DNA of 64,000 nt from Leuctra nigra (taxonomy: Eukaryota > Arthropoda > Insecta > Plecoptera > Leuctridae). The stretch covers positions 4,960,001 to 5,024,000 of the forward strand of contig OW203762.1 in the NCBI GenBank assembly GCA_934045905.1. The letters are read 5' to 3'. Every line of letters begins with the position of its first letter. Positions within the stretch are counted from its first letter, which is position 1. A model generated the notes under the pieces. It saw only the letters and a program-made list of their open reading frames with translations, did not search any database and was not told where the DNA came from. A program made the translations under genes and the position numbers. Below, in pieces: positions 13,171 to 63,990 of the stretch.

Positions 13171-13267
13171 CTAAAACAGATTGAACAAACGTGTTGTCAT
13201 GCATAAATGCAAAAATAAATACGTGTTATACATACATTATTTCAAATTTATTGGTTTCATGATTGTA

Positions 13268-16989: not shown

Positions 16990-17237
16990 TAACAAAAAAT
17001 ACGATAATTAAGCAAATTGTGCAAAATATTCTACAGCTCTAAAACTTTGCAGATGTAAAGAACTAAAGCAACGAAGCAATAAAATACAAACTTAAATTTG
17101 TTGGGATTATGATTTTTGCCACCGAGGGCGCTGACAGTTTCAAATTTGTAATCCGTCTTGCACGTAAACGGTACATCTTAAATTTTAAAAAAATCATGTA
17201 CCTAGTGGCAGTGCCGTATTTATATATGCGCAATATA

Positions 17238-18059
17238 CCGGGTGGCCCAATAAAAATGCACAATTGGCGAGACATCGCTGTGACGAAACTACTGCACAAA
17301 ACGGGCTGAAAATTTCACATAATTTAAACAACATACTAAGGTTTGATGTGTGAAAGTTTGATAAACATTACTTTTGTGGGAAAATCGTTACTACAGCTGT
17401 TAGAATTTGGCTGTCGCAAAATTGATTATACGGCGCTCAAATAGCACGCGTTCAGAAAACGTCAATTGGACGGGACGCTGTTTCTTCAAAACTCAAGCTG
17501 CAAATATTAAATATTATTCAAGTTATATTGTTATCATTTGTGCGAAAATTTCAATACATTTGGGTTGATGGAACGGATGTTACGGTATCTTGAAGTTCAG
17601 CTTAAACGCAGAAACTCGGGGAGATAATTTCACGTTTTAAAATTACTTGTGTAAGAAAACTTGTGAAATTCACCTCTACTTTTTAGCTCAGATTCAAGAA
17701 ACCACATCTTTTGTTTGAATGATCCAAGACCAAATGTATGAAATTTTTAGACAATTGAAAGCAATATATTTTGGTTAATATTTGAAATTGTCAGCTTTAT
17801 ATCTTTAGTGGTTTTGAAGAAACAACGTCCCGGCCAAAGGCCGTTTTCTAACACGCGCTATTTGTGCACGTATAATCGATTTTTCGACAACCAAATTCTA
17901 GCAGCTGTAACTTTTTTCCTACAAAAGTTATGTATTTCAAATTTTCACTAATCAGACCTTACTATGTTGTTTATATTATTTGAAATTTTCAGTCCGATTT
18001 GTGCAGCAGTTTCGTCACAGCGATGTCTCGCCAATTGTGCGTTTTTTTGGGCCACCCGG
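17238..18059. mobile_element. 822-bp palindromic MITE, second copy of CCGGGTGGC family
   Basis: It starts TACCGGGTGGCCCAA and ends TTGGGCCACCCGGTA, flanked by TA. Its length is exactly that of 13268-14089, although the sequence is clearly diverged. It keeps the inverted GGACGCTGTTTCTTC / GAAGAAACAACGTCC pair. A solo end of the same family is at 22824. Confidence 0.85.
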
Positions 18060-18200
18060 TATATAATACCTATAAGATTTGAGCGATGTATGCTTTACTC
18101 TCATTGATCGAAACAGTTTGTTTACATTTTCTCTTGTGGAGACGTTAATTGACGACTTATTTATTGTCTTAAAAGTCTTGAAAGTCAAAAACTTTTGGCT

Positions 18201-29362: not shown

Positions 29363-30030
29363 TTAATCCTGCAGTGCTGCATTCCAAAATACATCTATGC
29401 ACGATGAGTTGCCTACCTCTCAGGCAGTTGCTTACCACTCAGACTTCGCGGCGAGTAGGGGAAGTATACGCCAACCCACCCGGACAGATAGTGGGGACAG
29501 AATATTTGTTAGTTTGGGGTACAGTTTGTCAGGGATCAGTTTGCGTGTTTTGGGGTACAGTTTGTCGAATAGCAGTTTTTATGTTTTGAGGTACAATTTG
29601 TCGGGGATCACTTTTCAAATTTTGGGGTACAGTTTGTTGGGGATCAGTTTTCGTGTTTTGGGGTACAGTTTGTCGAATATCAGTTTTTGTGTTTTGGGGA
29701 ACAGTTTGTCGGGGATCACTTTTCACATTGTGGGGTACAGTTTGTTGAGGATCAGTTTTTGTGTTTTGGGGTACAGTTTGTCGAAAAGCAGATTTTGTGT
29801 TTTGGGGTACAGTTTGTCGGGGATCACTTTTCACATTGTGGGGTAAAGTTTGTTGGGGATCAGTTTTTGTGTTTCGGGGTACAGTTTGTCGAATAGCAGT
29901 TTTTGTACTTTGGGGTACAGTTTGTCGGGGATCACTTTGTCTCTACCCTCAAATACCTTTAAAAATATAAATTACAGTGTCCTAGGTGTATAATATCATT
30001 GAAAAACGAAATGTCATCTTTCTCGGCCTA
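29363..30030. repeat. Right, inverted copy of the minisatellite-bearing repeat
   Basis: Reverse complement of 8944-9821, about 20 kb away. Both unique flanks match (GCAGTGCTGCATTCCAAAAT; AGATGACATTTCG in reverse) as well as the minisatellite. It has fewer bases between the minisatellite and its outer end. Confidence 0.65.
29510..29944 (-). repeat. 36-bp minisatellite, inverted copy
   Basis: About 12 units reading GGGGTACAGTTTGTCGGGGA on the plus strand. The unit order closely follows the left array, including the CACATTGTGGGG-type variants. Open frames are artefacts of the period. Confidence 0.85.
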
Positions 30031-35058: not shown

Positions 35059-35166
35059 ATGATTCCACTGTGCAGATTCTGCCTTGTGCGTAAACAGAAT
35101 CTTACACCAATATTTGACAAGAAAGAAATGATTCTGAAGAAGATTAATGATGTCGTTCAGTTAGAG
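35059..35166 (+). CDS. ZAD zinc-finger gene, exon 1 (first half of ZAD domain)
   Basis: ATG at 35059 opens 36 codons: MIPLCRFCLVRKQNL, then TPIFDKKEMILKKI and NDVVQLE, with donor GAG|GTAAGC at 35166/35167. C-R-F-C at residues 5-8 is the first zinc pair of a ZAD domain. The L.PIFD and hydrophobic I..I..V segments are the usual ZAD helix region. ZAD domains normally begin within a few residues of the N-terminus, so this ATG is the likely start. The second zinc pair is in exon 2 (ICQQC). Upstream DNA holds a MITE and the CRE/ETS repeat block. Confidence 0.8.
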
Positions 35167-35542
35167 GTAAGCTAGTGCCACTCGTAAATTAAGGGGAGAT
35201 TAGTACAGCAAGATTAAGGAGGGATTCCCGAATAGAGTTCTCTGAAATTTTTTTTTATTGTGATTAACAATATTTATTAATATTTCAAGCATTTGAAGTT
35301 TTCAACTAGGTAGGTAGAACCATATTCATAAAATGAGGAAATTGTAACACAGGCCTACGGCTACACATTAATGGCCACATAGGACACATTTTGGCACACA
35401 GGACAAATTAATTTAGATTTTCAATTCAAAATGTGAATAAAGGTGTGTAAATTAGAATTTTGTTAGAATCTCAGTCAGCCAATAGTTTAAAACTAATATT
35501 TAGTAGGAAATTTACTGTGCTTTTTTGAACTCCGCGTGTTAA

Positions 35543-36161
35543 CCCTCTAAGTGCCAACGTCGATTTTTTCGACACTTCGTAAAATTGGGGCCCTAAATTT
35601 TATTTAAGGGCGCACAGTGTATTTTATTGGTGGATTTGTTTATTTGATCAATAGTGGATCTATTGTTGAGCTGGATCAGTCGGTAAAATTACTTTAGAAG
35701 GCCGTGAAACATGATTCATAAAGATGGTGGTGAATTCTCGCCTATTGTTACCATGTGTGCAATTGCGCATGCGCAACTACTAAAATCGACGTATCTTTTA
35801 TTCTATTGCATATAATTGTTTGATTATTTTTTTGGTATTTCTCAGCATTGTAAATTACATTTATTTTGATAAAAACGATCATGGTAATTAGTGATTATTT
35901 TGTGCAAATAATTTGGCAAAATACCTTTTTATTTGTAATTAAATTTTATACGATTAATTATATTTTTAATCAATTGATATTTCGAAAAAAACTAAAATGT
36001 CATGCACTCATATGATTCTTTGGAGTCTTCTGAAACTTTTAAAACCAATCCCAATATTGTTGATCAATTATTTCATCTTCAAATTAATTTTCCCAATTAT
36101 GTCCACATTTCTGCTAAATAGGGCTGGCACTATACACTTTTTAGCCTTGGCACTTGTAGGG
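35543..36161. mobile_element. piggyBac-type MITE in intron 1 (619 bp)
   Basis: TTAA flanks both ends (35539-42, 36162-65). Inverted ends are CCCTCTAAGTGCCAACG and CCCTACAAGTGCCAAGG. Exact TTAA and CCC starts are the piggyBac hallmark. No transposase; the plus frame 35997-36194 has no recognisable domain. Confidence 0.85.
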
Positions 36162-36526
36162 TTAAAGTCAGGGCTAATTCACATAATGAAGTGATCTTGG
36201 AAATTAGTTCCGCTTGCACACATTTTCCTGCTTTTATAGGTCAAAAGGAATTCTATTAAATAAGCATTAGGACCTTTATTCGGGCATCCTCCTATAGCAA
36301 GTTAATGGCTTTTTTTCCACCTAACCGGCAGATTGCCAGTTGAGGTTTATGGTGAAGACAATGTTACTAAGACAGTAACAAGTATTTAGGTCAATTACGT
36401 TAAGTACTGATATAAAATTACTATAGTTCCATCAATAAGTCAATTCCTTAAAGTCCATTCATCCCGCTCCCGCACCATTAAGCCACCATTGCTGAGACGC
36501 TGTTTCTCAACTCAACTCAACTCAAC

Positions 36527-37536
36527 ATGAGACCTCCGCGTTGTAATGTCAATCCTCATCTAGTGTGTATGTCTTTGACATTGACAGATATCGCACGACG
36601 ATGGGCTGCCGGGAAGCATATGTCAGCAATGTGTCTTCCAACTCAACATGAGACCTCCGCGTTGTAATGTCAATCCTCATCTAGTGTGTATGTCTTTGAC
36701 AATGACAGATATCGCACGACGATGGGCTGCCGGGAAGCATATGTCAGCAATGTGTCTTCCAACTCAACATGAGACCTCCGCGTTGTAATGTCAATCCTCA
36801 TCTAGTGTGTATGTCTTTGACAATGACAGATATCGCACGACGATGGGCTGCCGGGAAGCATATGTCAGCAATGTGTCTTCCAACTCAACATGAGACCTCC
36901 GCGTTGTAATGTCAATCCTCATCTAGTGTGTATGTCTTTGACATTGACAGATATCGCACAACGATGGGCTGCCGGGAAGCATATGTCAGCAATGTGTCTT
37001 CCAACTCAACATGAGACCTCCGCGTTGTAATGTCAATCCTCATCTAGTGTGTATGTCTTTGACATTGACAGATATCGCAGACGATGGGCTGCCGGGAAGC
37101 ATATGTCAGCAATGTGTCTTCCAACTCAACATGAGACCTCCGCGTTGTAATGTCAATCCTCATCTAGTGTGTATGTCTTTGACATTGACAGATATCGCAG
37201 ACGATGGGCTGCCGGGAAGCATATGTCAGCAATGTGTCTTCCAACTCAACATGAGACCTCCGCGTTGTAATGTCAATCCTCATCTAGTGTGTATGTCTTT
37301 GACAATGACAGATATCGCATGACGATGGGCTGCCGGGAAGCATATGTCAGCCATGTGTCTTCCAACTCAACATGAGACCTCCGCGTTGTAATGTCAATCC
37401 TCATCTAGTGTGTATGTCTTTGACATTGACAGATATCGCACGACGATGGGCTGCCGGGAAGCATATGTCAGCAATGTGTCTTCCAACTCAACATGAGACC
37501 TCCGCGTTGTAATGTCAATCCTCATCTAGTGTGTAT
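36527..37536 (+). repeat. 121-bp exon-derived satellite, left array (8 full units plus 44 bp)
   Basis: Units start with ATGAGACCTCCGCGTTG at 36527, 36648, 36769, 36890, 37011, 37131, 37251, 37372 and 37493, with period 121 or 120. Each has 61 bp of intron end (through GTCTTTGACATTGACAG) and 60 bp of ZAD exon 2 (ATATCGCACGACGATGGGCT through CTTCCAACTCAAC). The array is preceded in the intron by CTCAACTCAACTCAAC, which supplies the junction homology. The last unit is cut by the transposon at 37537. Long frames such as 37011-37322 are repeat artefacts. Confidence 0.9.
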
Positions 37537-38130
37537 GGGTCGTTCCGCCTCAGGACAACCAAAAAATGACGAAAATTGACCTGACCTCTTGCGATTTTAA
37601 TAAATTTTTTTTTGAATATTGTCTACCTAAAAATAGTCGACACGTGTTTTTTTGTTTGACCTTGAGGGCAACCACTTCCGCAGTGCAAGCTTGCAAAATA
37701 TCATGATTTTGTACTTTTTGAACATTCCGCTTGCACTTTCATAGCTCGTAATTTTTGATCCAAATATCGTACAAAGATTATTTTTTTACCAAAATGAAGC
37801 TCTTTTTATGCTCTATTTTACTATTGTATACACAATATGTTTCTTAAATTACAACATTTAAAAATATGAAAGTGAAAAATTCAAAGTTCCATTACTCAAA
37901 AAGTCATTTTTTTATAATTTTTAAATTTTTACCATATAATTACTCATATGTTATCTACTTACTGTAAAACTTTCAAGTTGGAGTGTCTAGGGATGTGGGA
38001 GTAATGAATTATTTAGGGCATCAAGGTACTTGTGAAACCGCGCGGCAGAGCGCCGCCGCTGCTCTCGTTCTAGCGATCGCGGTAAAAACTCCACTGAACT
38101 CGATCACTATTGTAACTACTCATTTTCTAT

Positions 38131-38427
38131 TCTGTCTACTATAATTCAACAATTACTTTGATACTATTAGTTGTTAGTTGATTTGACAATCATAGCAATG
38201 GTTTAAATATGTATTCTCGTGGAACCACGAAAACCGTTATGTTCTGAAACCTTCGTTACACGACATCACAATAAATTCTCTCTGTCTACTATAATTCAAT
38301 TACTTTTATAATATTTGTTGTGGGTCGTTTTGACAATCAATGCATTGTTTTTATATGAGTTCTCATGGGATCACGAAAACAGTTATGTTCTGAAACTTTA
38401 GGTATACGACATCATAATAAAATCTCT
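38131..38427 (+). repeat. 150-bp tandem duplication within the transposon
   Basis: TCTGTCTACTATAATTCAA starts both copies (38131, 38281), and CACGAAAACCGTTATGTTCT / CACGAAAACAGTTATGTTCT recurs in each. The copies are moderately diverged. Confidence 0.75.
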
Positions 38428-39415
38428 TGTCTTACGTTTTGCTATTCATAGACGGTACTCCGTTCTTCGCCAATTTTTGCCGACCAATCATGTAATAAAT
38501 ATTCCTGTCAATTAATTTCAACCCTTTCAGTTTTTAATCCCTGCTCTGTGTTCGCCGACACGAACTGCCCACCCTGCGTTGGTCTCGGGTGCAGGTGTAT
38601 TTCTATAGGTATTGTTATTGGTTTTTAGGTATGTAATTGATTGAGGAGATTTTCTACACTGTGTAACTTCTAAGAGCAATCATATCTGTTTTGGCTTCCC
38701 AACCACACGGACCTCTGAGCTCTCCAAGTGTTGGGTGTTATAATAGGTATACATTTGTGTGTGGTTTTTTTTCTGATAGACAAGAAATACTGATATACCT
38801 ATTCGTAGTGCATTTCGTAGTGAAATTGGTGTTCAATTTTTTGCGTTTTTTATCTATGGTTTATCGAGTCGATGTAATTATTTAATGAAATCAATTTATA
38901 GAATAAGTTTACATCTATGTAGGCTTTTCCTATAGGTACCTACTTTCTGTAAAATTGAAGAGTTCAATAATTTGAGAGTAAATACTACTTATTACATTAT
39001 TTTCAAATTCAATCAGTGCGTCAAAGGTGTAAATCAGTCGCGACTTTGCTAAAAACTTTTCTTTTGTGCTGCAAGACGAGGCCCAGGGATTTTACTGAAA
39101 CAAATCGTCCACCACTCTCCATCCATTCGTCGCATACTACAAAGAGAATAGTGAAGTGAAACACATCAGTTTTGCAGTAATTTCTGAATGCAGCAGGATA
39201 CAGTTGCCGTCCGTTTATTTATTAAAAAAACTTATTAATTTTCTGAAACAATATTTTCAATCAGCCAACAAAATCATGTAGGTATTTATCAAATGGTTCA
39301 GCTGCCCAGTACAAAAATCGTAAAATATAAACAATATTTGCCGCCACAATGCAGCCGAGTGGCACTTCACAGCCACATCGCACGGAAAGGGGGCCTGTGA
39401 GGGTGTGGGTGGACT

Positions 39416-39640
39416 GTGAAGCGGCTTGCAGTCGAGCCAGTCTGCATGCCTTATGACGGCCAGATCATGGCTCCGCGACAACTCTATGACTGGGTCCAGT
39501 CCAACATCACATCCATCAACTTCGAGTATTGTACGCAAGATGAGCACGACTTGGAGGATCAGATTCTCGCGGCAAGATTTTCACAAGCACGTCTTATCTC
39601 TGGCACCCAGAAACTGCATTCATTTGTTCCTGTATCCATA
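39416..39640 (+). pseudogene. C-terminal remnant of a transposase-like protein, cut by a SINE
   Basis: After a possible acceptor (CTTGCAG at about 39431) the frame reads PVCMPYDGQIMAPRQLYDW, SINFEYCTQDEHDLED, ARFSQARLI, GTQKLHSFVPVS. It then runs into the poly-T of the SINE at 39641. The order PYDGQ, LYDW, RF..AR, GT..LHSFVP matches, from memory, the C-terminus of the same repeated invertebrate protein whose middle part is at 193-520. Only this segment is present, so it is not functional. It supports the view that the host element once encoded that protein. Confidence 0.5.
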
Positions 39641-39931
39641 TTTTTTTTTTTTTTTTTTTTTTTGTCTGGGGCTTAACGTCGCACTGTTCTGCAGCGAGGC
39701 TAATGGCGACAGATGGATGATTATGATGATGATCGGGAGATGATGGTGAAGAGTAGGTAAGGATGGAAGGTGGGAAGGAGGCGGTCGTGGCCTATTAGTA
39801 GGGTACCTTCCCAGCATTTGCCTGAAGACTGAGGGAAAACCACGAAAAAACCCCAGTCAGGAAGGACGGCCGCGGGAATCGAACCCGGGCCTCCGGAATA
39901 CAAGCTGAGAGCGTTAACCACTCACCCAACC
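39641..39931 (-). mobile_element. tRNA-derived SINE, full length
   Basis: On the minus strand: tRNA-like head with GGTTGGGTGAGTGGTTAACG (A box) and CGGGTTCGATTCCCGC (B box), body with AAATGCTGGGAAGGTACCCT, tail GTTAAGCCCCAGAC then a 23-base A-run (T 39641-39663). TGTTCCTGTA before the run and TGTTCCGTAA after the head may be the target duplication. It is inserted in the transposase remnant. A diverged relative is at 54303. Confidence 0.85.
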
Positions 39932-40629
39932 TGTTCCGTAAATTTACATTTATACGTGAGTATAAATGTCTATGCTGTATCAACACACGTCATTCAAACG
40001 AGAGTTTATTCCTACGCTGCAGAAGCAAGAGATGAATTTGTGTCCATCCAAGCAGATGAACTATTGTTTAAACATATCTGCGGCTTTGTCACGTGCAATC
40101 GCTAGAACGACAGCATCGCCCGCGCTCGGCCGCACGGATTCCCAAGTACGTTGACGCGCTAAATAATTTATTACTCGCACATCCCTTGACACTCCACTTT
40201 GAAATTTTTACAGTAAGTAGGTAACACATCGGCAATTATATGGTAAAAATTTTAAAAAAATTAAAAAATGACTTTTTGAGTAATAAAATTTTGAATGTTT
40301 TACATTCATTTCTTTAAATGATGTGGTTTAAGAAACATATTGTGTATAATATATTAAAATAGAGCATAACAAGAGCTTCAATTTGGTAAAAAAGGCATCT
40401 TTGTACGATGTTTGGATCAAAAGTTATGAGCTATGAGAGTGAGAGCGAAATGTTTAAAAAATACAAAATCATGATAATTTGCAAGCTTGCATTTCGGAAG
40501 TGGATGACCTCAAGGTCAAACAAAATTACACGTGTCGACTCTTTTTTAGTATACAATATTCCCACAAAAAATTAATAATATCCCAGGTGGTCAGGTTTTT
40601 TGCTTGGGGATTTGGAGCTGGAATGCCCC

Positions 40630-43282
40630 GTATGTCTTTGACATTGACAGATATCGCACGACGATGGGCTGCCGGGAAGCATATGTCAGCAATGTGTCTT
40701 CCAACTCAACATGAGACCTCCGCGTTGTAATGTCAATCCTCATCTAGTGTGTATGTCTTTGACATTGACAGATATCGCACGACGATGGGCTGCCGGGAAG
40801 CATATGTCAGCAATGTGTCTTCCAACTCAACATGAGACCTCCGCGTTGTAATGTCAATCCTCATCTAGTGTGTATGTCTTTGACATTGACAGATATCGCA
40901 GACGATGGGCTGCCGGGAAGCATATGTCAGCAATGTGTCTTCCAACTCAACATGAGACCTCCGCGTTGTAATGTCAATCCTCATCTAGTGTGTATGTCTT
41001 TGACATTGACAGNNNNNNNNNNNNNNNNNNNNNNNNNNNNNNNNNNNNNNNNNNNNNNNNNNNNNNNNNNNNNNNNNNNNNNNNNNNNNNNNNNNNNNNN
41101 NNNNNNNNNNNNNNNNNNNNNNNNNNNNNNNNNNNNNNNNNNNNNNNNNNNNNNNNNNNNNNNNNNNNNNNNNNNNNNNNNNNNNNNNNNNNNNNNNNNN
41201 NNNNNNNNNNNNGTCTTTGACATTGACAGATATCGCACAACGATGGGCTGCCGGGAAGCATATGCCAGCAATGTGTCTTCCAACTCAACATGAGACCTCC
41301 GCGTTGTAATGTCAATCCTCATCTAGTGTGTATGTCTTTGACATTGACAGATATCGCAGACGATGGGCTGCCGGGAAGCATATGTCAGCCATGTGTCTTC
41401 CAACTCAACATGAGATCTCCGCCTTGTAATGTCAATCCTCATCTAGTGTGTATGTCTTTGACATTGACAGATATCGCATGACGATGGGCTGCCGGGAAGC
41501 ATATGTCAGCAATGTGTCTTCCAACTCAACATGAGACCTCCGCGTTGTAATGTCAATCCTCATCTAGTGTGTATGTCTTTGACATTGACAGATATCGCAC
41601 GACGATGGGCTGCCGGGAAGCATATGTCAGCAATGTGTCTTCCAACTCAACATGAGACCTCTGCGTTGTAATGTCAATCCTCATCTAGTGTGTATGTCTT
41701 TGACATTGACAGATATCGCAGACGATGGGCTGCCGGGAATTATATGTCAGCAATGTGTCTTCCAACTCAACATGAGACCTCCGCGTTGTAATGGCAATCC
41801 TCATCTAGTGTGTATGTCTTTGACAATGACAGATATCGCATGACGATGGGCTGCCGGGAAGCATATGTCAGCCATGTGTCTTCCAACTCAACATGAGATC
41901 TCCGCCTTGTAATGTCAATCCTCATCTAGTGTGTATGTCTTTGACATTGACAGATATCGCACGACGATGGGCTGCCGGGAAGCATATGTCAGCAATGTGT
42001 CTTCCAACTCAACATGAGACCTCCGCGTTGTAATGTCAATCCTTATCTAGTGTGTATGTCTTTGACAATGACAGATATCGCATGACGATGGGCTGCCGGG
42101 AAGCATATGTCAGCCATGTGTCTTCCAACTCAACATGAGATCTCCGCCTTGTAATGTCAATCCTCATCTAGTGTGTATGTCTTTGACAATGACAGATATC
42201 GCATGACGATGGGCTGCCGGGAAGCATATGTCAGCCATGTGTCTTCCAACTCAACATGAGATCTCCGCCTTGTAATGTCAATCCTCATCTAGTGTGTATG
42301 TCTTTGACATTGACAGATATCGCACAACGATGGGCTGCCGGGAAGCATATGTCAGCAATGTGTCTTCCAACTCAACATGAGACCTCCGCGTTGTAATGTC
42401 AATCCTCATCTAGTGTGTATGTCTTTGACATTGATAGATATCGCACGACGATGGGCTGCCGGGAAGCATATGTCAGCAATGTGTCTTCCAACTTAACATG
42501 AGACCTCCGCGTTGTAATGTCAATCCTCATCTAGTGTGTATGTCTTTGACATTGACAGATATCGCACAACGATGGGCTGCCGGGAAGCATATGTCAGCAA
42601 TGTGTCTTCCAACTCAACATGAGACCTCCGCGTTGTAATGTCAATCCTCATCTAGTGTGTATGTCTTTGACATTGACAGATATCGCAGACGATGGGCTGC
42701 CGGGAATTATATGTCAGCAATGTGTCTTCCAACTCAACATGAGACCTCCGCGTTGTAATGTCAATCCTCATCTAGTGTGTATGTCTTTGACATTGACAGA
42801 TATCGCACAACGATGGGCTGCCGGGAAGCATATGTCAGCAATGTGTCTTCCAACTCAACATGAGACCTCCGCGTTGTAATGTCAATCCTCATCTAGTGTG
42901 TATGTCTTTGACATTGACAGATATCGCACGACGATGGGCTGCCGGGAAGCATATGTCAGCAATGTGTCTTCCAACTCAACATGAGACCTCCGCGTTGTAA
43001 TGTCAATCCTCATCTAGTGTGTATGTCTTTGACATTGACAGATATCGCAGACGATGGGCTGCCGGGAATTATATGTCAGCAATGTGTCTTCCAACTCAAC
43101 ATGAGACCTCCGCGTTGTACTGTCAATCCTCATCTAGTGTGTATGTCTTTGACATTGACAGATATCGCACGACGATGGGCTGCCGGGAAGCATATGTCAG
43201 CAATGTGTCTTCCAACTCAACATGAGACCTCCGCGTTGTAATGTCAATCCTCATCTAGTGTGTATGTCTTTGACAATGACAG
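40630..43282 (+). repeat. 121-bp exon-derived satellite, right array (at least 19 full units)
   Basis: The array resumes at GTATGTCTTTG, completing the unit broken at 37536. Full units start at 40711, 40832 and, after the N gap, at 41290 and every 120-121 bp to 43222. Variants at the exon start are GCACGACG, GCACAACG, GCATGACG (121 bp) and GCAGACG (120 bp); GAATTATATG replaces GAAGCATATG in some. The last unit (43222-43342) is not just satellite: from 43283 it is the real exon 2. Each unit carries an intact-looking AG acceptor but, apart from the last, no following donor. Confidence 0.9.
41013..41212. other. Assembly gap (200 N)
   Basis: Exactly 200 N. The visible parts on either side (61 and 77 bp of monomers) do not sum with 200 to a whole number of units, so the true array length here is unknown. 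Confidence 0.99.
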
Positions 43283-43408
43283 ATATCGCACGACGATGGG
43301 CTGCCGGGAAGCATATGTCAGCAATGTGTCTTCCAACTCAACTCCGCTCATTGCTTCAAGCAGAGGTGCATCACGGCGGAAAACAAGCTCAAAGCTTTCG
43401 TCTCACAG
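43283..43408 (+). CDS. ZAD zinc-finger gene, exon 2 (second half of ZAD domain)
   Basis: The acceptor TGACAATGACAG ends at 43282; the donor is CAG|GTATGC at 43408/43409. The 42 codons read ISHDDGLPGSICQQCVFQLN, then SAHCFKQRCI, then TAENKLKAFVSQ. Following exon 1 in phase 0, this completes a ZAD domain: DDGLP is the typical turn and C48-x2-C51 the second zinc pair, with F..RC and a closing helix. The first 60 bp are identical in kind to the exon part of every satellite unit; the array ends where exon-specific sequence (TCCGCTCATTGC) begins at 43343. It is the only unit with a downstream donor. Confidence 0.85.
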
Positions 43409-45456
43409 GTATGCAAATTCACAATGTAGTTGCAATTCATTGTAGGAAAGTGGAAAGTAACGGGATGTACGTACACGGGTCTTTTTAAGTGGATTTTAAG
43501 TTTTGTCTGTCTTTCGAAGAGTATTGTACAATTACAGCTAACTAATCTAAATAACTAGAGGGACCCGTCATGTAAAACATGACCAATGTGCACCAGTGAG
43601 GTATGCGTAAATATAAAACGACAGCAATATTTGTCAGCAGAGTGTGCGTCGTTAATACACTTGACGTCGTTGATGACCCAATATTAACAGAATACGTTAA
43701 CAAATGGGGAACGAAGAAAAGCAATTTGATCATAGGTACCTATTAAGATAAAACAATTTCATATAAGTTTCCAAATTTACACCAGAGTATTCGTACTAAG
43801 TTAAAATAAGAAGAAAAACAATGTATGCGCCGTAAAAAAAAAATATATATACATTACGTTGATACCTTGACCTGATGCCCACGACCTTTCTTCATTTGTG
43901 ATGCTATTACATGGTATCTACGGCTTCATTATACCTATTATACGTTCCTCAGATGTAGGGCGGAAGTAAATTTGTTTGATTTTGCGGTGCACAATTTTGG
44001 ATTGTAATCAAGCTCTATCAAGTACCGTTTCACTGATGTTAACAAATAACGTTATATTGAAGTATTCTCTTACAAAAACTCATGTCACCATTACAAATGA
44101 TTGGTTGATGTCAGAAATACTGTTCTCTGAGCTCACTTCAAGAATATTGAAATGACTTCAGCCCATCTACCTCTAATTAAAGTATAGATATTCAGTTGAC
44201 AATGTAAAACTTAAACATTGGTGCTTCAAACTTTATCAACAGCAACATGAATTCGTTGTCAATACATGACTCAATACAGACCACTCTACGAAATAAGAAA
44301 CGACTGAAAATGATTAATCTAACAACATTATTTAAAAACTTCGTCGGTTACATATTTTGAGGGTTACAGAACCGTGTTGATTAAATATGATTAAATGTAG
44401 GAAGAATATAATACATTTGATCGTTTGCAAATTGCAGCATGAGGCCAATGTTAAAAATCTATCGGCTTTGTTTGGTATTCATGGCCCTCTAAAATACAGA
44501 TCAAATGAAAAATTTAAAAAATTACACTTTGACGTTTCTTGGAGTAAAGAAGTTTTCTATGTAATGTCTCTTTTGAACGGTTATTATGTGTTATAGTAGA
44601 TTTTTTACACACTCAAAGGGATAAGGATTACGTTTTAGCTAAGTTATGGTTATTTCTTTACTTTGTGAAGGCAAAAGACGTATTTTTAGACACGATTGGC
44701 AATGAAAGGCCACCATTTTAAATACAAAATAGTGCCGTTTTCAATGTAATGTAAAGATTTGGACAGTTATTCTGTGTTTAAATACATTTCTTATAAACAC
44801 AAAGGGATAAGGATTGCCATTTAGGTAAGTTTCTGTTATTTATTTATGCACAAAGAGCAGAAGACATGACTTGGGCAATGTAACGTCGACCATTTTAATT
44901 TTAAATACAACATAGAGAGTGTGCGCGCGAAATTGAGAGGATGCGCGCGCAGGCGTTCCTGACACACACACACACACACAGACAGACAGAACTGGGTAAC
45001 TATAAGTAAGATGACACATATTTCAGTAGTACCAACCTCTGATACATCCTCAAAATGTTTTTTTTGTTTTTTTTTTTGTTTGTTTTAGCATTTTATTTAT
45101 TATAAACAGGTCAATACATTATAGTCAGACTAGGCCACATAGCCATAACTGGCTAGCCTGTGGCAATACATAATTCAATAAACCATAATAAATCAAAAAG
45201 AAATACAGCTCAATATTGCAGACATAATTAAATAAATCAATAAAATGATATTAATTGTTAGAAATAATCTTCAATTGATTGATGTGAATGTGAAGAAAGA
45301 CAAACCTCAGAATGCCTGTTGTGTCTCCGTTACTTTCCCGAGGCTGCTAAAAGCATACTACATTCTGATTGAGAGTACAGATCAGTTTTAATTAAGAGAA
45401 GTCAGTGTTAGATTGGTGCTTAAAGAATAATCCACATTCTTCTTTCTTGAACGTAG
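43409..45456. other. Intron 2 of the ZAD gene
   Basis: AT-rich intron (2048 bp). It contains a LINE tail at 45057, a (CA)n/(GACA)n run at 44966-44988 and two diverged direct repeats around ACACAAAGGGATAAGGATT (44613, 44799). It ends with a pyrimidine-rich tract and CGTAG at 45456. Confidence 0.6.
45057..45260 (-). mobile_element. LINE 3' tail in intron 2
   Basis: On the minus strand it carries CACAGGCTAGCCAGTTATGG, TGACTATAATGTATTGACC and ATAATAAATAAAATGC, then an A-rich tail. This resembles the 3' UTR of insect jockey-type LINEs. No coding part. Confidence 0.45.
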
Positions 45457-45777
45457 ATGTCTGGATCGTCGGTGGAAAGTGCTCTGGATCTGTTTCCGAG
45501 CGACCCTGGCCTCCACGACAGCGACAGCGAAGCGGAGTTCGACTTGCCCCCGTGCGAGGTCGTTTACACGGAACCCAACCAGACCCTCATGGAAACCAAG
45601 GAGCGACTCGACACGTTCGACGCGTTTCCCATAAAACAGGAGAAGGCGGTGAAAGTGGAGGAGAAGAGCGACGAGGAGTTGGAATCAGACTTGGACAATA
45701 CGGAGTTGGGCGGACAGGAAGCGGAGGCCGACGAGATGCCGGTGACGAAGAAGCTCACTCCAGCGCAGTTGCTTGCG
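45457..45777 (+). CDS. ZAD zinc-finger gene, exon 3 (acidic linker)
   Basis: The acceptor TTCTTGAACGTAG ends at 45456 and the donor is GCG|GTGAGA at 45777/45778. The 107 codons begin MSGSSVESALDLFPSDPG and are rich in D and E (DSDSEAEFDL, EEKSDEELESDLDN). Two psi-K-x-E sumoylation-type motifs, IKQE and VKVE, sit close together. Without exons 1-2 the first Met could be taken as the start, but the acceptor directly before it and phase agreement favour an internal exon. GC content is clearly above the surrounding introns, as expected for coding DNA. Confidence 0.85.
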
Positions 45778-46371: not shown

Positions 46372-46953
46372 AAAAAAGTGGCTGCTCAGAAAAAGAAAGA
46401 CGACAAGAATCTGCCGGTGATCTGCGAGATCTGCGGCAAACTGTTCAAGAAGAACCACTTGTACTACCACCGCAAGCTTCACTCCACCGAGCGTAAGTAC
46501 GAGTGCACGGAGTGCAACAAGAGTTTCAAGATGGTCAGTCATCTCAAACGTCACGTTCGTCTCCACGTAGGCGAGAAGTCGTACCTCTGTTCCTTCTGCG
46601 GGAAGTCGTTCATTGACAGCAGCAACCTGCGCAACCACACACGCAACCACCGCCAGGAGCGGAACCACAAGTGCGTGACATGCGGCAAGGCGTTTTCACG
46701 CGCCGAGACCCTCATCAAGCACCTGCGCTCGCACACCGGCGAGAAGCCATACACCTGCGAGATCTGCACGCGACTCTTCCCGCGGAAGGACTCGCTGATA
46801 CGACACATGAAGAGCCACCGGGGCGAGCGGCCGCACAAGTGCGACATCTGCGAGAGGAGCTTCACGCAGTCGTACGATCTTAAGTTGCACATCAAGAAGC
46901 ATCTTGCCAGGGCGATACCGTATTCACACGAATCCAAGTCTCCTTCCAATTAG
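46372..46953 (+). CDS. ZAD zinc-finger gene, exon 4 (six C2H2 fingers)
   Basis: The acceptor CATCTCTAG ends at 46371; the stop TAG ends at 46953. After a lysine-rich start (KKVAAQKKKDDK) come six fingers: CEICGKLF, CTECNKSF, CSFCGKSF, CVTCGKAF, CEICTRLF and CDICERSF, each followed by H-x3-H. Finger 1 has 11 residues between the Cys and His pairs; the others have the standard 12. Linkers include the canonical HTGEKPY between fingers 4 and 5 and HRGERPH between 5 and 6. The fingers should bind DNA in the nucleus; target unknown. The protein ends HESKSPSN. No polyadenylation signal close to the stop was found; the first AATAAA is near 47670. Confidence 0.92.
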   Translation, partial: KKVAAQKKKDDKNLPVICEICGKLFKKNHLYYHRKLHSTERKYECTECNKSFKMVSHLKRHVRLHVGEKSYLCSFCGKSFIDSSNLRNHTRNHRQERNHKCVTCGKAFSRAETLIKHLRSHTGEKPYTCEICTRLFPRKDSLIRHMKSHRGERPHKCDICERSFTQSYDLKLHIKKHLARAIPYSHESKSPSN

Positions 46954-48031: not shown

Positions 48032-49055
48032 ATCTATTTACTTTCATTAAAAAAATATAAACCAATATCATCGTGTGCTAAATAAAAAGTTGTAGGCGAT
48101 TCAATTCGAATTGCGAATCAAGTCAAAATACTTTTGGCAACACGGGAGTGCTCAAGGTAGTTAGAAGGCACTAAATGCCTACTAAAGATACCTTGACTTT
48201 TCATGAAAGTAAACTCTAGGTGTAAGCTATTTACTTTCATTAAAAAAATATAAACCAATATCATCGTGTGCTAAATAAAAAGTTGTAGGCGATTCAATTC
48301 GAATAGACCAAAACATAAACTAGTGGCGCCCTCAAAGCGAACTAAAAAAGGGAGTGTCACTATGTGTGACCATCTCTTAGTGCGCATGTTCCAAGTCACT
48401 TAAATGTCAATCTTAATGAGTTAGTGAAAGTTATAATTACATCGCGAAATAACAGAAATGCTTACCTCAGTGTCAACATTCAAATACAACAGGCATATTT
48501 CATTTCAGCACATATTCATACACATTCTTGTGAAAACTAGATATCTATTCACCAAAATCACCATTTGACAAACGCATTTGTTTTTATCACGGTCTTCTGA
48601 ACCTTTTCTGAATTAGCTCATTCAGAAAAGATTCAGAATGCCGTGATAAAAAAATGCGATATGTCAAATGGTGATTTTGGTGAATAGACATCTAGTTTTC
48701 ACAAGAATGTGTATGAATATGTGCTGAAATGAAATATGCCTGTTGTATTTGAATGTTGACACTGAGCTCATGGTAAGCATCAATTTCTGTTATTTCGCGA
48801 TGTAATTATAACTTTTACTGAACTATCGTTATACGATTGACATAAAAGTGCCTTGCCTGAATGTCACACATAGCTGGAAGAGAAAATGGCGGATTGGGCA
48901 TGCGCGTTTAGTTTATGTTTTGGTCTATTGCGAATCAAGTCAAAATACTTTTGGCAACACGGGAGTGCTCAAGGTACCTAGTTAGAAGGCACTAAATGCC
49001 TACTAAAGATACCTTGACTTTTCAATTTTCATGAAAGTAAACTCTAGGTGTAAGC
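48032..49055 (+). repeat. ~193-bp tandem duplication, second copy split by a foldback
   Basis: The block from CTATTTACTTTCATTAAAAA through TCTAGGTGTAAGCT (48032-48228) is followed by its first part again (48229-48305). Then comes a foldback insert (48306-48926), then its second part (48927-49055). Confidence 0.85.
48306..48926. mobile_element. Foldback MITE splitting the duplication
   Basis: Ends are AGACCAAAACATAAAC and GTTTATGTTTTGGTCT. The interior is a long palindrome (CACCAAAATCACCATTTGAC / GTCAAATGGTGATTTTGGTG) homologous to the inner part of 15260-15887. The insertion point can be compared with the uninterrupted copy at 48111; a 2-bp AT duplication is suggested. Confidence 0.8.
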
Positions 49056-53575: not shown

Positions 53576-54302
53576 CTGAAATCATAATTACAATTCACTG
53601 AACATAATGTGCTTTCCGTGTTTCTTATTATAGTTTCATTCTGCACCAAAGAGTCCTCAGTACGGTTCTTTCAGTGTGTTTCTTAACTTTTTCTTTATGT
53701 AATAGAATAATGAAAAAGCAACAAGACACCTAAATTTCAAGCTCACACTGAGCTTAATAATCCCACAAACTGGAATACATTACGAACTCTGGTAGGTAAG
53801 CCGTCAAAGTGATACAAAATTATTCATAAGATTCATATTTATTTTATTATTTAACATTTTGAGGACAAACTAGGGGTCGTAATGTACTCCAGTGTTTGGC
53901 ATTATTTTGTTTAGTGAGTTTGAAATGTGCATTACCCATTGATCTTGTTAAATTCTGTTTGTGTGAAGAGAAAACTGAAAAACAGAAAAATATAATTTGA
54001 AAAGAATAGCTCGGGTCCCGGTACTTAACGGAGCTCTTAAGTCGGTCATTCAAGTTAATTTCATCTGCTATTATTGGACCGTTTTTAATAGGACTGTTGC
54101 AGGCTGACGACTGACAGGAGCACTCCAATTATTGTTTATCTTCACACAATGTGTGAGTGGATTGATATTTGTGCTTTTGTTTGGCAAAACATATTACTGA
54201 ACCTGGATTCTGTGGCATAATCACAATTTGTTTGTACAAAACATGCAAAATCTCGCATTGAGCGGATTTGCTTCCACTCTGTAGCTACAGAATCAGACTC
54301 CT

Positions 54303-58692: not shown

Positions 58693-58873
58693 CTATTTAT
58701 CAACATTTCAGTTTCATCAGAGGACATTGAGATAAACGCAGACTCAAGCCCAGTCTCTAAAGGAGATGTAGGCAGCTGAAATCAATAAATGTGACTGGGT
58801 TTGATCTGCAATTACAAATGTATTCATTCAACCAATTTTAGCAATATCCATTTCGTTGGAATGAGTAACTCAC

Positions 58874-59026
58874 CTTTCGAGCGTCTGATAAGTGAACAGA
58901 AGGTTTTGGTGACCCGTAATGTCCCAAGCAGGTTGACTTCCACTTGATGTCTGATTTGTTGTTCCGTCTGCCATTCGAACTCTCCGAACACCATCACGGC
59001 CGCATTATTAACTACCGTCCGCAATA
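58874..59026 (-). CDS. SDR gene, exon 2 (NNA motif, VNLLG)
   Basis: The acceptor GTGTTTCAG ends at 59027; the donor is AAAG|GTGAGT at 58874/58873. The 153-bp exon encodes VLRTVVNNAAVMVFGEF, then EWQTEQQIRHQVEVNLLGTL, then RVTKTFCSLIRRSK. N-N-A-A stands where most relatives have N-N-A-G; N146 in VNLLG is the tetrad Asn. Exon lengths of exactly 153 bp for both exon 2 and exon 3 keep the phase. Confidence 0.9.
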
Positions 59027-59078
59027 CTGAAACACGGTATATCCGTAGCAAGTAAATCCTCAATAATCCTTGCAGCAG

Positions 59079-59480
59079 ACACTTTTTGGGATACAATTAG
59101 AGACAGACAGACTGATGGATGTAATGAATTTAAATATTAATCATGATTTGATCAAAGACAAACTCCAGGTATTTGGTTTGATTTTACATTTTTTCTTCTC
59201 TAAAAATAATTACTAATTTACTAATTAGTAATAATTGGCTGATTTTTTGTGAATATAAATAGTACTTTCTTTTCTGTTTGGGTGCCTCATAAAAATTCAT
59301 TTAAAAATGTGTCGAGAAACAATACTCAGAACATCCAGGATTATAAAATTGTAATTGCAATTGTAATGTTATTGTAAATTGACAATTGTAATTGTAAAAT
59401 TAGACATTAATTAGTTCACGGGTTTGGTCTCCAATCGTTGTACTTTTAAAAAGGCATAAAGTAAAAATTAAAAAGTACTA
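59079..59480. mobile_element. Foldback MITE in SDR intron 1, related to 4948-5300
   Basis: ACACTTTTTGGGATACAATT at the left and GGGTTTGGTCTCCAATCGTT at the right, with AATCATGATTTGATCAAAGA between, follow the order of the copy at 4948. It lies about 55 bp upstream of the exon 2 acceptor. Confidence 0.55.
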
Positions 59481-59728
59481 CTAAACTACAACCAGACTGA
59501 TCAACATCCTTTGAGATTAAATCGAAAATTATCAGCACCATCGACAAGATAGTTTATGTATATGAGATGGTTTAGTTTATGAGAGTTTATACAAGTTTAT
59601 GCATAAACTTGGATAAAATTTCTATATAATATGTCGATCGATTTGGTGCTGGCGATTAATAAAAAAATTTCTAATACGTTAAAACATGGTACAGTGGAGA
59701 GAGCTTGTAGACTTATGATGTGACATAC

Positions 59729-60071
59729 CACAGTCCGGGTTGTCTCTGAGGAAGCCCCTGACCGCCTGGAGTGCTGCGTCGACGCTGCTCTGACTGGTGA
59801 CATCACACTGGACCACACGCAGCCTCTCGCTGGCCTCACAGAGCTGCTCGAGCCTCGGGCCGCTGACCGCCACGTCCAGACACGCGGCCACGACGGTCAG
59901 GCCGAGACGGTGCGCGTGGACGGCCATGGAGAAGCCGAGGCCGGTGTCGCAGCCCGTGATCAGCACCACGTGGCTGCGGGCGGCGGCCATGCGAGCCACC
60001 GGGACCAGGCGGGACCACAGGCGGTGGCCGATGTACAGCAGGGCGCTCGCGATGCACAGCGATGTCAGCAT
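59729..60071 (-). CDS. SDR gene, exon 1 (membrane anchor and cofactor motif)
   Basis: ATG at 60071 in the context CCACGATGC opens 114 codons plus one base; the donor is TGTG|GTATGT at 59729/59728. Residues 1-19 are hydrophobic (MLTSLCIASALLYIGHRLW), followed by basic residues, as in a signal anchor. HVVLITGCDTGLG at 34-46 is the TGxxxGxG nucleotide-binding turn, and D90-V91-T92 the adenine-ring contact usual for SDRs. It is markedly GC-rich, so other frames also stay open here; those are shadows. Confidence 0.9.
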
Positions 60072-61529
60072 CGTGGCAGTCCAGTCGCTTAAACCAAACC
60101 AAATACATGCGGAACAATACTCTTTGTCTCTAGTTGTAGGTTATTTCCAAACAATATTTTATTAGGTACATTTATAATTCCTATGCTACCAAGGTGCTTG
60201 GAAACTCTGAAAATATATTACGATTTTCTTTTTAATTGTTAGAAATAAACAAATAAATTATTGAAAAAATCTGTGACATTCAAACTGCTTGCAGGAGATT
60301 AATTTATAATTGCCAATTTGCTAATTTTCCATTTGTTAGTTAAATAAAAAAATATTTGCGTTTGTAGGTATTGATAAATATATTTTATTCATACAAATCA
60401 TTTTTCTAAAACATAACATAGGTAATATTTGGGTAAAAATAATGTTTTATATCCAAATAAATGTTTCATGAGATTTACGTCTACTATATGCCAATTTGCT
60501 AATTTTCCATTATTTCGGAAAGTTGCTTTAAATAATTTATTATTTTGTAGTGGGGTGGGCTATGAACATCCTGTTGGGTAGAGGGGGGGGGGGCTGATGT
60601 CACCACTGTCTGGGGGGTTATTCTAAAACTTTAAAATTCCGGATTCGGCCCGAATACGATTCGGTGCAATGTTAATCCATATGGCCGTGAATCGTATTCG
60701 GGCCGAATCAGGAATTTTAAAGTTTTAGAATACCCCCCCAGGTCTGGGAGTATAAATTTAGAGATTTCTGGGTATATTTAACCCTAAAGTTCTCAAAATA
60801 AAAACTATATTCCATTTGACATGAGGCAAGTGATTTTATTATAACCACAATAGTTACTTCAATACAATCCATGAACACACTAGGTAAACATTTAGTAAAT
60901 TGTCTAATTAAGTTATTTACCTTCCTTGATCAGAATCTGTTGTTAATCTTCCAGATATGTCAGTCCGTGTGTTGGTTCTTCTCAGCTGATCTTGTTGACT
61001 CGCATCTGTCAATGTCCCCACGTGTTAAAGCCCAAGTGACAGCTGAAGGAGTGACCACCGCGGCAATACACTCTTATCAAATGCAACAGTTCTTGAATGC
61101 TTGCCAGAGCACGGGGTCAACGATCTCGCCCAGAGCAACAAGTTACAGATTGTTGACTGAAGATTAGGACAATAATTCCATTGTCAGCTTCGTTGAACAT
61201 GGCTAATAGTGGCTAGGTCACTTTGCACTTATGCTATTTCCTGCATAATAATAATGAATTATAAATAGATATTATATAGCGCCAACAATTTCTTTTCAAT
61301 TTAGTTGATATTAATAGATTTTAGGAAAAACTTGAATCTGCAATTACAAAAAATATCAAGATTTTCCTTATTCTTCTTAGACATTTACCGATAGGTAGGT
61401 ATACATTTTCTTTTATCAGCTATCTTTATCAGTTCAGCATTACATTTTGCTTCTGTTCATAAATGATTTAATCTTATCTGTCCTCCAAATTTGTTCTAAA
61501 ATTATGAACCGACCATAATCCTTTTCAAG
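60072..61529. other. 5' flank of the SDR gene, no other gene
   Basis: AT-rich. GCTAATTTTCCATT occurs twice (60319, 60499). The plus frame 60871-61167 has no recognised domain. A palindromic MITE at 60611-60740 is listed separately. No TATA box can be assigned with confidence. Confidence 0.45.
60611..60740. mobile_element. 130-bp palindromic MITE
   Basis: TGGGGGGTTATTCTAAAACT at the left and AGTTTTAGAATACCCCCCCA at the right, with CGGCCCGAATACGATTC paired further in. The end type resembles that of 3860-3986. Confidence 0.85.
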
Positions 61530-61728
61530 TCCAAGTCCTTTTTTTAAGTATTTCTCGGGGGTTGATATTTTTATTTCAATGGTACGATTAAAATTTGGAA
61601 AATTCGTTGACTTGGCTCCTTTTTTGATATCACTCCTTTTCAGTGCTGAATTTTTAGATTTCTTCTATTTTTTTTTATAGTTAAAGAGACTTGGCTGGTA
61701 TTTTTACACGGAGTGTTTTTTCTGGGAT
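61530..61728 (-). mobile_element. Single arm of the long-TIR element, abutting a LINE
   Basis: AGTCCTTTTTTTAAGTATTT through GTGTTTTTTCTGGG matches the right arm of 32173-33296 almost exactly. The other arm is absent. The LINE ORF begins right at its edge, so the element inserted in, or recombined with, the LINE. Confidence 0.75.
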
Positions 61729-63167
61729 ATGTATTATATGTATTATATGGAAAAGGAAAATGGTCATAATACAAATGACAAAGAAGAAATAAAGGAATTA
61801 TGGAAAAACTATTTTTCAAAATTACTAAATGCATATGAAGATACTAATAATGTAGAAGATGGGACTGATAAGGAGCAGCGTGATGAAGAAGAAGAGGTAT
61901 GTCAAGATCAAGTGAAAATGGGGGAGCTAGAATTGGCAGTAATGGGGATGAAAAATGGAAGATCGGCTGGTGTTGATGAAGTTACAGTTGAAATGATTAA
62001 AGCTGCAGGGAAATCAGGATTGGAATGGTTTTATCGGGTGGTTTGTGCGGCGTGGCATAAAAAAAGAGTACCTAAAGATTGGACGCGAGGTGTAATTGTG
62101 CCTATTTTTAAGAAAGGAAATAGGAAACATTGCTCAAATTATCGGGGTATTACTTTAATGAGCCAATGTGCTAAGATATATGAAAGGATTTTGGAGAAAC
62201 GGTTAAGATGGGATGTAGAAGAGAGTCTAAGAGAAGAGCAATATGGATTTCGGAAGGATAGATCGTCAATCGAATTGATTTTCGCAATGAGACATATCAT
62301 GGAAAGAAGTTGGGAACAAGGAAAGGAATTGTGGATGGCATTCTTAGATTTGGAAAAAGCATACGACCATTTGCCTCGGTGTAAAGTGTGGGAAGGTTTA
62401 GAAAAGAGGAATGTGGAGCAGGGGTTGATAGAAAGAGTAAAGAGTTTGTATGTGGGATGTGAAAGTTGTGTTGAGAGTGGTTGTGGGAAGACAGAATGGT
62501 TCTCCATAAACTCAGGAGTAAGGCAGGGAAGTGTGCTGCCGCCACTACTGTTTACGGTAGTAATGGATGCCATGATTCGGGAGGTGGTAAATGGGGAAAA
62601 TACCAACACTGGAGTATATGCAGATGATATTGTGGTGTGGAAACACGACGTACAGGCAAAAATAGATAAATGGAATGAAGTAAGCACATGTTTTGGAATG
62701 AAGATTAGTAGAGACAAGAGCGAGTATCTGGTGATGGCAAAGAAGAGAAAAACACAAGAGCAAGGGTTGCAGTTGAGAGGTGAAGAAATGAAGAAGACGG
62801 AAGCATTCCCAAATTTGGGAAGCACTGACAGAGGACGCTAGATGTGGAGAAGAAGTGAAGAGGAGGGTAAAGAAAGCAGATGGATTCTACCAACAAGTAA
62901 GAAAGCTAGTGTGGGACAAAAAGCTTCCACTAAAATTTAAATTGGTACTGTATAAACAATATTTCTTACCAATTTTGAGTTATGGATCAGTTACATGGAA
63001 TATTGGGTGGAAAGAGGCAAGCATGATTCAGGCAGCAGAAATGAAATTTGTTAGGGCTATGGTTGGAGTATCATTGTTGGACAGGATAAGAAGTAATAAG
63101 TTAAGAAAAGAAGTTGCAGTGGAGAGATTGGGATACACTATTGGAAGAGATAGGTTAAGGTGGTTTG
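61729..63167 (+). pseudogene. Non-LTR retrotransposon reverse transcriptase, frameshifted, 5' and 3' truncated
   Basis: The frame 61729-62841 holds the reverse transcriptase core: GVIVPIFKKGNRKHCSNYRG (121-140), the FLDLEKAYD motif A (205-213), GVRQGSVLPPLLF motif B and YADD motif C (297-300). At about 62824 the frame breaks after NLGS; it continues in another frame with LTEDARCGEEVKRRVKKADG, YFLPILSYGSVTW and RDRLRWFG to 63167. There the LINE is fused to the 3' half of a tRNA-like repeat. The N-terminal endonuclease is missing, replaced by the TIR arm at 61530-61728. The clade was not fixed. Not functional as it stands. Confidence 0.85.
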
Positions 63168-63309: not shown

Positions 63310-63568
63310 AATGTCAGTTGTCAAACGTGGAAAGGATTCCACGGTCTTCTGACCTCTTCATCACGCGTCTCGGACTGTAGAAATACAGTTTATATGGAAC
63401 AAAAACCACTGCAGATTGAATAGCCTGCTTAGCTTAGTGGTTAGAGCACTGGACCGGCAATTCAGAGACGTGGGTTCGATCCCCACAGTAGGCAAATATT
63501 TTCAATTTGCAGTTGGTATTAATTATCATCACCCTATCTGAGGTCATCAGAAAAAACCATATTAGTCA
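63310..63568 (+). mobile_element. tRNA-like-core repeat, plus copy
   Basis: Upstream block GTCAGTTGTCAAACGTGGAA and TTCCACGGTCTTCTGACC, about 75 bp of spacer, tRNA-like core 63423-63494, then TTTTCAATTTGCAGTTGGTA. An inverted relative with the same flanks but a different core is at 63760-63990. Confidence 0.65.
63423..63494 (+). tRNA. tRNA-like sequence (anticodon position GGC), probably pseudo
   Basis: A cloverleaf can be drawn: acceptor GCCTGCT/AGTAGGC with one G-U pair, D stem GCTT/GAGC, anticodon stem CTGGA/TTCAG, T arm GTGGG-TTCGATC-CCCAC. The loop CCGGCAA lacks T33 and would put GGC at 34-36, an anticodon not used by eukaryotic Ala tRNAs. It lies within a repeat, so a tRNA-derived repeat is more likely than a working tRNA. 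Confidence 0.45.
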
Positions 63569-63769: not shown

Positions 63770-63777
<8 letters not shown>

Positions 63778-63990
63778 CCAACTGCAATGAGAAAAGATTT
63801 TCCTCGAGTGGGACTCGAACCCACGACCTTCCGATATCCAGTCAGATGCTCTACCATCTGAGCTATCGAGGCAGTTAACATTGCAGCGGCTGTGTTCCAA
63901 TATAAGCTGCGTTAGCAACTTACCGAGATTTGAAGATAGGGTCAGAAGACCGTGGAATATGTTCCACGTTTGACAACTGACTAACTTCAC
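63760..63990 (-). mobile_element. tRNA-like-core repeat, minus copy
   Basis: Read on the minus strand: GTCAGTTGTCAAACGTGGAA, ATTCCACGGTCTTCTGACCC, a spacer of about 80 bp, tRNA-like core 63872-63801, TTTTCTCATTGCAGTTGGTA, then the TA run. Same architecture as 63310-63568 in opposite orientation. Confidence 0.65.
63801..63872 (-). tRNA. tRNA-like sequence (anticodon position GGA), probably pseudo
   Basis: D stem GCTC/GAGC and T arm GTGGG-TTCGAGT-CCCAC are perfect. The acceptor GCCTCGA/TCGAGGA has one mismatch at the first pair. The loop CTGGATA gives GGA (Ser), but real Ser tRNAs have a long variable arm and this one has only five bases. It is best read as a tRNA-derived repeat core. Confidence 0.45.

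Follow-up and report, generated by a model that had tools for sequence, protein, structure and literature searches.

A probable mirage-type minisatellite of decoy splice acceptors within intron 1 of a ZAD zinc-finger gene

The 64,000-nucleotide stretch of the Leuctra nigra genome considered here (contig OW203762.1, positions 4,960,001 to 5,024,000 of the forward strand; below called the window and numbered from its first letter) carries a gene for a protein with a ZAD and C2H2 zinc fingers, and inside this gene the junction of intron 1 and exon 2 is repeated in tandem. Between 36518 and 43342 this acceptor junction occurs 29 times, 28 array copies being followed by the real exon 2 as the last one. 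Judging from the sequence, we consider it highly probable that the array is an intronic minisatellite of the type known from lancelet genes as 'mirage' (PMC3087553), i.e. a series of decoy acceptors in an intact-looking gene, which would be removed together with intron 1. Two features place it in this class: the unit spans an intron-exon boundary of its host gene, and one authentic copy is distinct by its sequence, copy 29 alone continuing into the rest of exon 2. An earlier note on this DNA had claimed that the repeat derives from the gene itself, namely from the end of intron 1 and the start of exon 2, that it lies inside the gene, and that only the last copy, the real exon 2, goes on into SAHCFKQRC and a GTATGC donor; the open frame, the zf-AD match and the alignment with the solved chain 7pok_A described below bear this out.

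ZAD genes are chiefly found in insects, and the model proposed for the present one comprises four exons:

35059..35166, + strand: exon 1, with the ATG and the first half of the ZAD (first CxxC), donor GAG/GTAAGC (frame, splice signals, Pfam)
35167..43282, + strand: predicted intron 1, 8116 bp (gene model)
43283..43408, + strand: authentic exon 2, equal to copy 29, with the second half of the ZAD (second CxxC), ISHDDGLPGSICQQCVFQLN followed by SAHCFKQRCITAENKLKAFVSQ, donor CAG/GTATGC (frame, Pfam, 7pok alignment)
45457..45777, + strand: exon 3, an acidic linker (frame and splice signals only)
46372..46953, + strand: exon 4, with the C2H2 zinc fingers and the stop (frame, Pfam)

Spliced with copy 29 as exon 2, exons 1-4 form one open frame of 378 codons plus stop, with GT and AG signals at all exon joins, every one of them in phase 0. 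On the spliced protein, Pfam zf-AD covers residues 4-73 (E 9.2e-15, 55.1 bits against a cut-off of 28, profile positions 1-73 of 75), the two CxxC pairs coming from exon 1 (C5/C8) and exon 2 (C48/C51), and the C2H2 fingers downstream of the ZAD are matched by PF00096 in five stretches (E 1.8e-29). Placing the first ZAD half in an exon at 35059-35166, as had been done before, agrees with both the frame and the zf-AD match. The chain 7pok_A aligns with residues 4-75, spanning the join of exons 1 and 2 and reaching past the end of the repeat; two solved ZAD chains were matched, with clone-type names that we take to be those of Drosophila. The boundary of the repeat falls in the middle of the domain: the repeated exon part contains the second CxxC, and the remainder of the ZAD is found in the real exon 2 alone. 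Recruitment of the exon from a pre-existing satellite was considered as well and rejected, the exon part being the middle of a conserved ZAD that continues into unrepeated sequence. The joins from 35166 to the acceptor and from 43408 to 45457 are those predicted from frame, signals and domain. A tblastn search over the window for a second ZAD gene as a single-copy comparison gave nothing but weak matches beyond this gene (best E 0.86 at 53781-53960), and a protein search for orthologs with residues 1-100 returned nine candidates, none of which reached E 0.001.

Tandem Repeats Finder (TRF) detects a 121-bp period at 36518-37537, 40630-41012 and 41213-43342, with 96-99% matches, and the array with its edges and interruptions is laid out as follows:

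36508..36526, + strand: left edge, a (CAACT)n run ending in CAACTCAAC at 36518-36526
36527..37537, + strand: array block 1, with units 1-7 and unit 8 as far as the transposon (TRF, pattern matches)
37538..40629, + strand: inserted transposon, 3092 bp, splitting unit 8 (repeat analysis, edge letters)
40630..41012, + strand: array block 2, the remainder of unit 8 and exon parts 9-11 (TRF, pattern matches)
41013..41212: assembly gap of 200 N within the array
41213..43282, + strand: array block 3, exon parts 12-28 with intron parts, up to the acceptor of the real exon 2
43334..43342, + strand: right edge CAACTCAAC, the same word as at the left edge

The start of exon 2, ATATCGCA, served as an anchor, and its 29 occurrences range from 36588 to 43283. 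With up to 5 edits allowed, two patterns, one of 25 nt from the intron half and one of 30 nt from the exon half, give 29 matches each in the window, all of them within the array and none on the other strand, and no copy of the unit lies outside the array. Classical satellite DNA forms long arrays at several loci or in heterochromatin. As far as the 64-kb window goes, the array is a minisatellite at one locus; of the term 'satellite' chosen in the earlier note, the tandem arrangement within the gene stands. Exact matches were found neither for a 37-nt exon-half pattern in viral contigs nor for a 39-nt intron-half pattern in bacterial and archaeal genome contigs, in line with an animal origin of the DNA.

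Measured from acceptor to acceptor, 20 of the 28 array units are 121 bp long and six are 120 bp long, the remaining two being unit 8, which is split by the transposon, and unit 11, which runs into the N gap. Both interruptions had been noted before, together with some 27 full units, and a complete 62-bp intron part is indeed present in 27 of the 29 copies. The unit of 121 bp had also been recognised correctly, but it divides into an intron part of 62 bp (CATGAG...GACAG) and an exon part of 59 bp (ATATCG...CAACTCAA) rather than 61 and 60, the difference being a shared C at the junction. The array, formerly given as 36527..43408, starts at 36518 when the word common to both edges is included, and the last part of that range, 43343-43408, is exon 2 sequence outside the repeat. 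Owing to the 200-N gap, the copy number is given as at least 28 array copies. The transposon is bounded by inverted repeats of about 500 bp (37579-38080 and 40095-40596, 85%) and by a 5-bp target duplication, GTATG, at 37533-37537 and 40630-40634; it sits inside a unit and therefore arrived after the array existed there. This unclassified 3.1-kb element (37538-40629) also contains an internal pair of direct repeats of about 146 bp.

The 26 measurable units fall into 18 distinct sequences and are on average 97.4% identical in pairwise comparison (range 93.4-100%). Variable are 8 of the 62 columns of the intron part (27 complete copies) and 6 of the last 50 columns of the exon part (29 copies), whose head occurs in three forms, ATATCGCAC (n=17), ATATCGCA (n=7) and ATATCGCAT (n=5). 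Judged by eye, the two halves show no gross difference in variability of the kind that would indicate coding constraint on the array copies. The translation ISHDDGLPGSICQQCVFQLN assigned to the unit in the earlier note is correct as such, but not for every copy: seven of the 29 exon parts are one base short, which shifts the frame so that the peptide is not encoded in the gene frame, and some others carry substitutions (HN for HD, QP for QQ). The real exon 2 is identical to the modal exon part at all 59 positions, which, given so little variation, is weak evidence of constraint. Identical sequences recur at non-neighbouring positions (units 1, 2 and 28; units 3, 9, 10 and 26), and equality of units so far apart speaks for exchange within the array. 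A higher-order repeat with the TRF periods of 362 and 482 was rejected: in block 3 (units 12-28), none of the lags 1-8 exceeded the shuffled order, the lowest p being 0.14 at lag 3.

The same 9-bp word, CAACTCAAC, stands at both edges of the array, with different flanking bases on either side, and it is found nowhere else on the + strand of the window outside the array region. When two positions outside the array were drawn at random 200000 times (pairs less than 50 bp apart were skipped), a shared run of at least 9 came up 11 times. The presence of this word at both edges makes a tandem duplication, mediated by homology or slippage, the most likely origin of the array, since a duplication between two CAACTCAAC words 121 bp apart would yield just such a unit and such edges. 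In a first step, the 9-bp homology would have led to the tandem duplication of 121 bp, reaching from the CAACTCAAC close to the 3' end of intron 1 as far as its counterpart in exon 2; the duplicated piece would have had its own acceptor and preceding tract, the downstream copy would still have yielded the full exon 2 and the upstream copy would have turned into intron. As the shared variants suggest, unequal exchange, slippage or conversion may then have led to at least 28 copies with their variants mixed, and the transposon would have landed in unit 8. With one unit only, intron 1 would measure about 1421 bp, in comparison to 8116 bp now. Finally, the spliceosome would join exon 1 to the last acceptor and the array would leave within intron 1; we propose that the last acceptor is chosen because only the last copy precedes a complete exon and a better donor.

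In the frames tested, use of an upstream acceptor would break the protein. When the 29 acceptors are joined one by one to exon 1 and everything is kept through the end of exon 2, the frame is open for one of them, the last; from the others, read on in the genomic sequence, a stop comes before the end of exon 2 or after a shift (the frame of unit 10 crosses the N gap). All 29 copies retain the AG and a near-identical preceding tract, and each unit contains a GTATG, which makes a pseudo-exon of 99 or 100 nt possible. Inclusion of such pseudo-exons fails for 28/28 singles, 378/378 pairs, 3276/3276 triples and 20475/20475 quadruples. Among all 2^28 ordered subsets, an enumeration that took in these acceptor-donor pairs only, 706 are open up to exon 2, of which the empty one alone continues there in the protein frame; the remaining 705 read exon 2 in a shifted frame and meet a stop 190 codons on, a distance that puts the stop within exon 4, where transcripts would not necessarily undergo decay. 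Compared with the general donor consensus, 27 of the 28 array donors match at 5 of 9 positions and that of unit 8, at the transposon, at 4 of 9, in contrast to 7, 7 and 6 of 9 for exons 1, 2 and 3. The 20 nt before the acceptor contain 11 pyrimidines in unit 1, 10 in the real exon 2, 14 in exon 3 and 15 in exon 4, the tract being weak in the copies scored.

The form of the array has already been described, contrary to the novelty suggested in the earlier note; new are the gene family and the length of the array. A minisatellite of the human 6-16 gene, attributed to Turri 1995, is said to give multiple donor sites; both it and the ZAD array would be minisatellites made of a splice site, with a short unit on the donor side in 6-16 and on the acceptor side in the ZAD array. 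In lancelets, the 'mirages' are minisatellite-like tandem repeats of intron-exon boundaries, including the 3' end of an intron with the 5' part of exon 2; they have been reported for Adh3 and globin genes (PMC3087553), to which PMC3902484 adds PGBD5 and troponin C. Regular splicing seems to be undisturbed there, as suggested by the Adh3 data and the reverse transcription PCR of the globin authors (PMC3087553), and the PGBD5 and troponin C mirages are reported to yield no aberrant mRNAs (PMC3902484). Length polymorphism between haplotypes and somatic instability also count among the traits of mirages. The unit of the lancelet globin gene BflGb6 (PMC3087553) likewise lies across the splice site and joins the 3' intron end to the 5' part of exon 2, with 150-160 bp and 81-100% likeness between units; many of the repeats keep their splice signals, and the authentic copy can be told apart from the duplicates, being used in transcripts there and recognised by sequence only here. 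The numbers of units differ, 6 and 3 in two haplotypes of BflGb6 against at least 28 in the ZAD array, as do the gene family and probably the phylum, and the ZAD array has a transposon inside it. The 9-bp edge homology of the ZAD array also stands in contrast to the lancelet globin, for which the mechanism of mirage origin was called unclear (PMC3087553).

Variable tandem repeats at exon-intron boundaries in human segmental duplications can activate splice sites and make introns (PMC2812944); these are minisatellites at exon-intron boundaries like the ZAD array, but the variable ones average a 30-bp unit and 4 copies, and many intron cases occur with both transcript forms. In Drosophila, introns have been gained through tandem duplication of exon pieces (PMC2891723); here, too, tandem duplication around splice signals alters the exon-intron structure, but coding sequence with a proto-splice site is duplicated and no array results. 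No boundary array was found in the accessible text on partial tandem duplications in the Drosophila simulans complex (PMC7919458), and no ZAD-gene or insect case of one appeared among the matches listed in the open-licence literature.

Several observations weigh against a mirage that is simply removed with intron 1. Both the use of the last acceptor and the existence of a single-copy ancestor are deduced from the genomic sequence of the window, rather than from a transcript or an outgroup. The real acceptor is no stronger than that of the array (10/20 against 11/20 pyrimidines in unit 1), and any preference for the real exon must therefore stem from what lies downstream, presumably the complete exon and its better donor. 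According to the globin authors, many of the repeated splice signals in lancelet mirages could serve as cryptic sites (PMC3087553). Units at the cluster edges of the lancelet globin escape homogenisation, whereas units 1, 2 and 28 of the ZAD array are identical and its edges are not set apart. It should also be noted that the three-unit period hinted at by TRF does not rise above shuffled unit order (lag 3, p 0.14) and so points to no particular mode of growth.

If the decoys were used, the array could act as a splicing brake, with the 28 decoys competing, some transcripts being spliced into the array, truncated and lost, and the copy number tuning the amount of ZAD zinc-finger protein. The AG and near-identical tract in all 29 copies, the failure of all 28 upstream acceptors to give the full protein, the real copy's acceptor being itself no stronger and the cryptic use of mirage splice signals allowed for in the globin paper (PMC3087553) fit such a brake, which we nevertheless regard as doubtful, since mirages are reported not to disturb regular splicing (PMC3087553; PMC3902484) and the array donors are weak. 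Distinctly unlikely is a copy-number-controlled splicing attenuator in which allele length would set how often exon 1 is joined to a dead acceptor and hence the dose of the ZAD zinc-finger protein; if true, the attenuator would be a rheostat built from the gene's own exon. A decaying gene, in which the array has already disabled the splicing of exon 2, would accord with the growth of intron 1 from about 1.4 kb to 8.1 kb on the single-copy model, but it is very unlikely in view of four open exons with GT and AG present, zf-AD and C2H2 matches above cut-off and a copy 29 that keeps the modal exon part over 59 positions. An assembly artefact or wrongly stacked haplotypes, which the N gap within the array might bring to mind, we hold to be highly improbable: the 26 measurable units comprise 18 distinct sequences, one unit carries a transposon with its target duplication, there is a single left and a single right edge, and a collapse would presumably decrease rather than increase the copy number. 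That the units are extra exons recoding the protein into ZAD variants or repeated half-ZADs is strongly disfavoured and scarcely conceivable, for although in each unit the acceptor is followed by a GTATG and certain stretches of several units (e.g. 36948-37322) read open in one frame, the frame enumeration of pseudo-exon subsets, in which the empty one alone keeps the protein frame, led us to reject such protein diversity.

Other repeats and genes were observed elsewhere in the window. A block of 36-bp/108-bp tandem repeats occurs twice, at 9243-9820 and 29363-29940, in opposite orientation and 20 kb apart, with 98.8% identity over 578 bp, pointing to a recent transposition or an inverted duplication. 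Foldback-like near-palindromes of about 450-870 bp, 76-90% self-complementary, lie at 13266-14093, 17233-18064, 15351-15800 and 48392-48859, the first two resembling each other (69-71%) as do the last two (79-80%). An open reading frame for a reverse transcriptase at 61681-62841 (+) matches RVT_1 (E 6e-30), its three best relatives among 63 matched proteins being 49-52% identical, and two exon-like pieces of a short-chain dehydrogenase gene are found at 58824-60140 (-), the adh_short profile being matched above the Pfam cut-off over positions 2-72 and slightly below it over positions 77-130. Rfam gives tRNA matches on opposite strands at 63423-63494 (+) and 63800-63872 (-), around which 63313-63524 and 63770-63981 are inverted copies of each other (72%).

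Read as a mirage-type intronic minisatellite, the array would carry a phenomenon that in PMC3087553 and PMC3902484 concerns lancelets over to a ZAD gene, with a copy number of at least 28. The 9-bp homology from which it most likely arose is still preserved at its edges; how mirages originate was left open by the globin paper. Moreover, 28 near-identical acceptors in front of one real acceptor would constitute a natural test of 3' splice site choice by the spliceosome, because the competing acceptors differ almost only in the sequence downstream of them.

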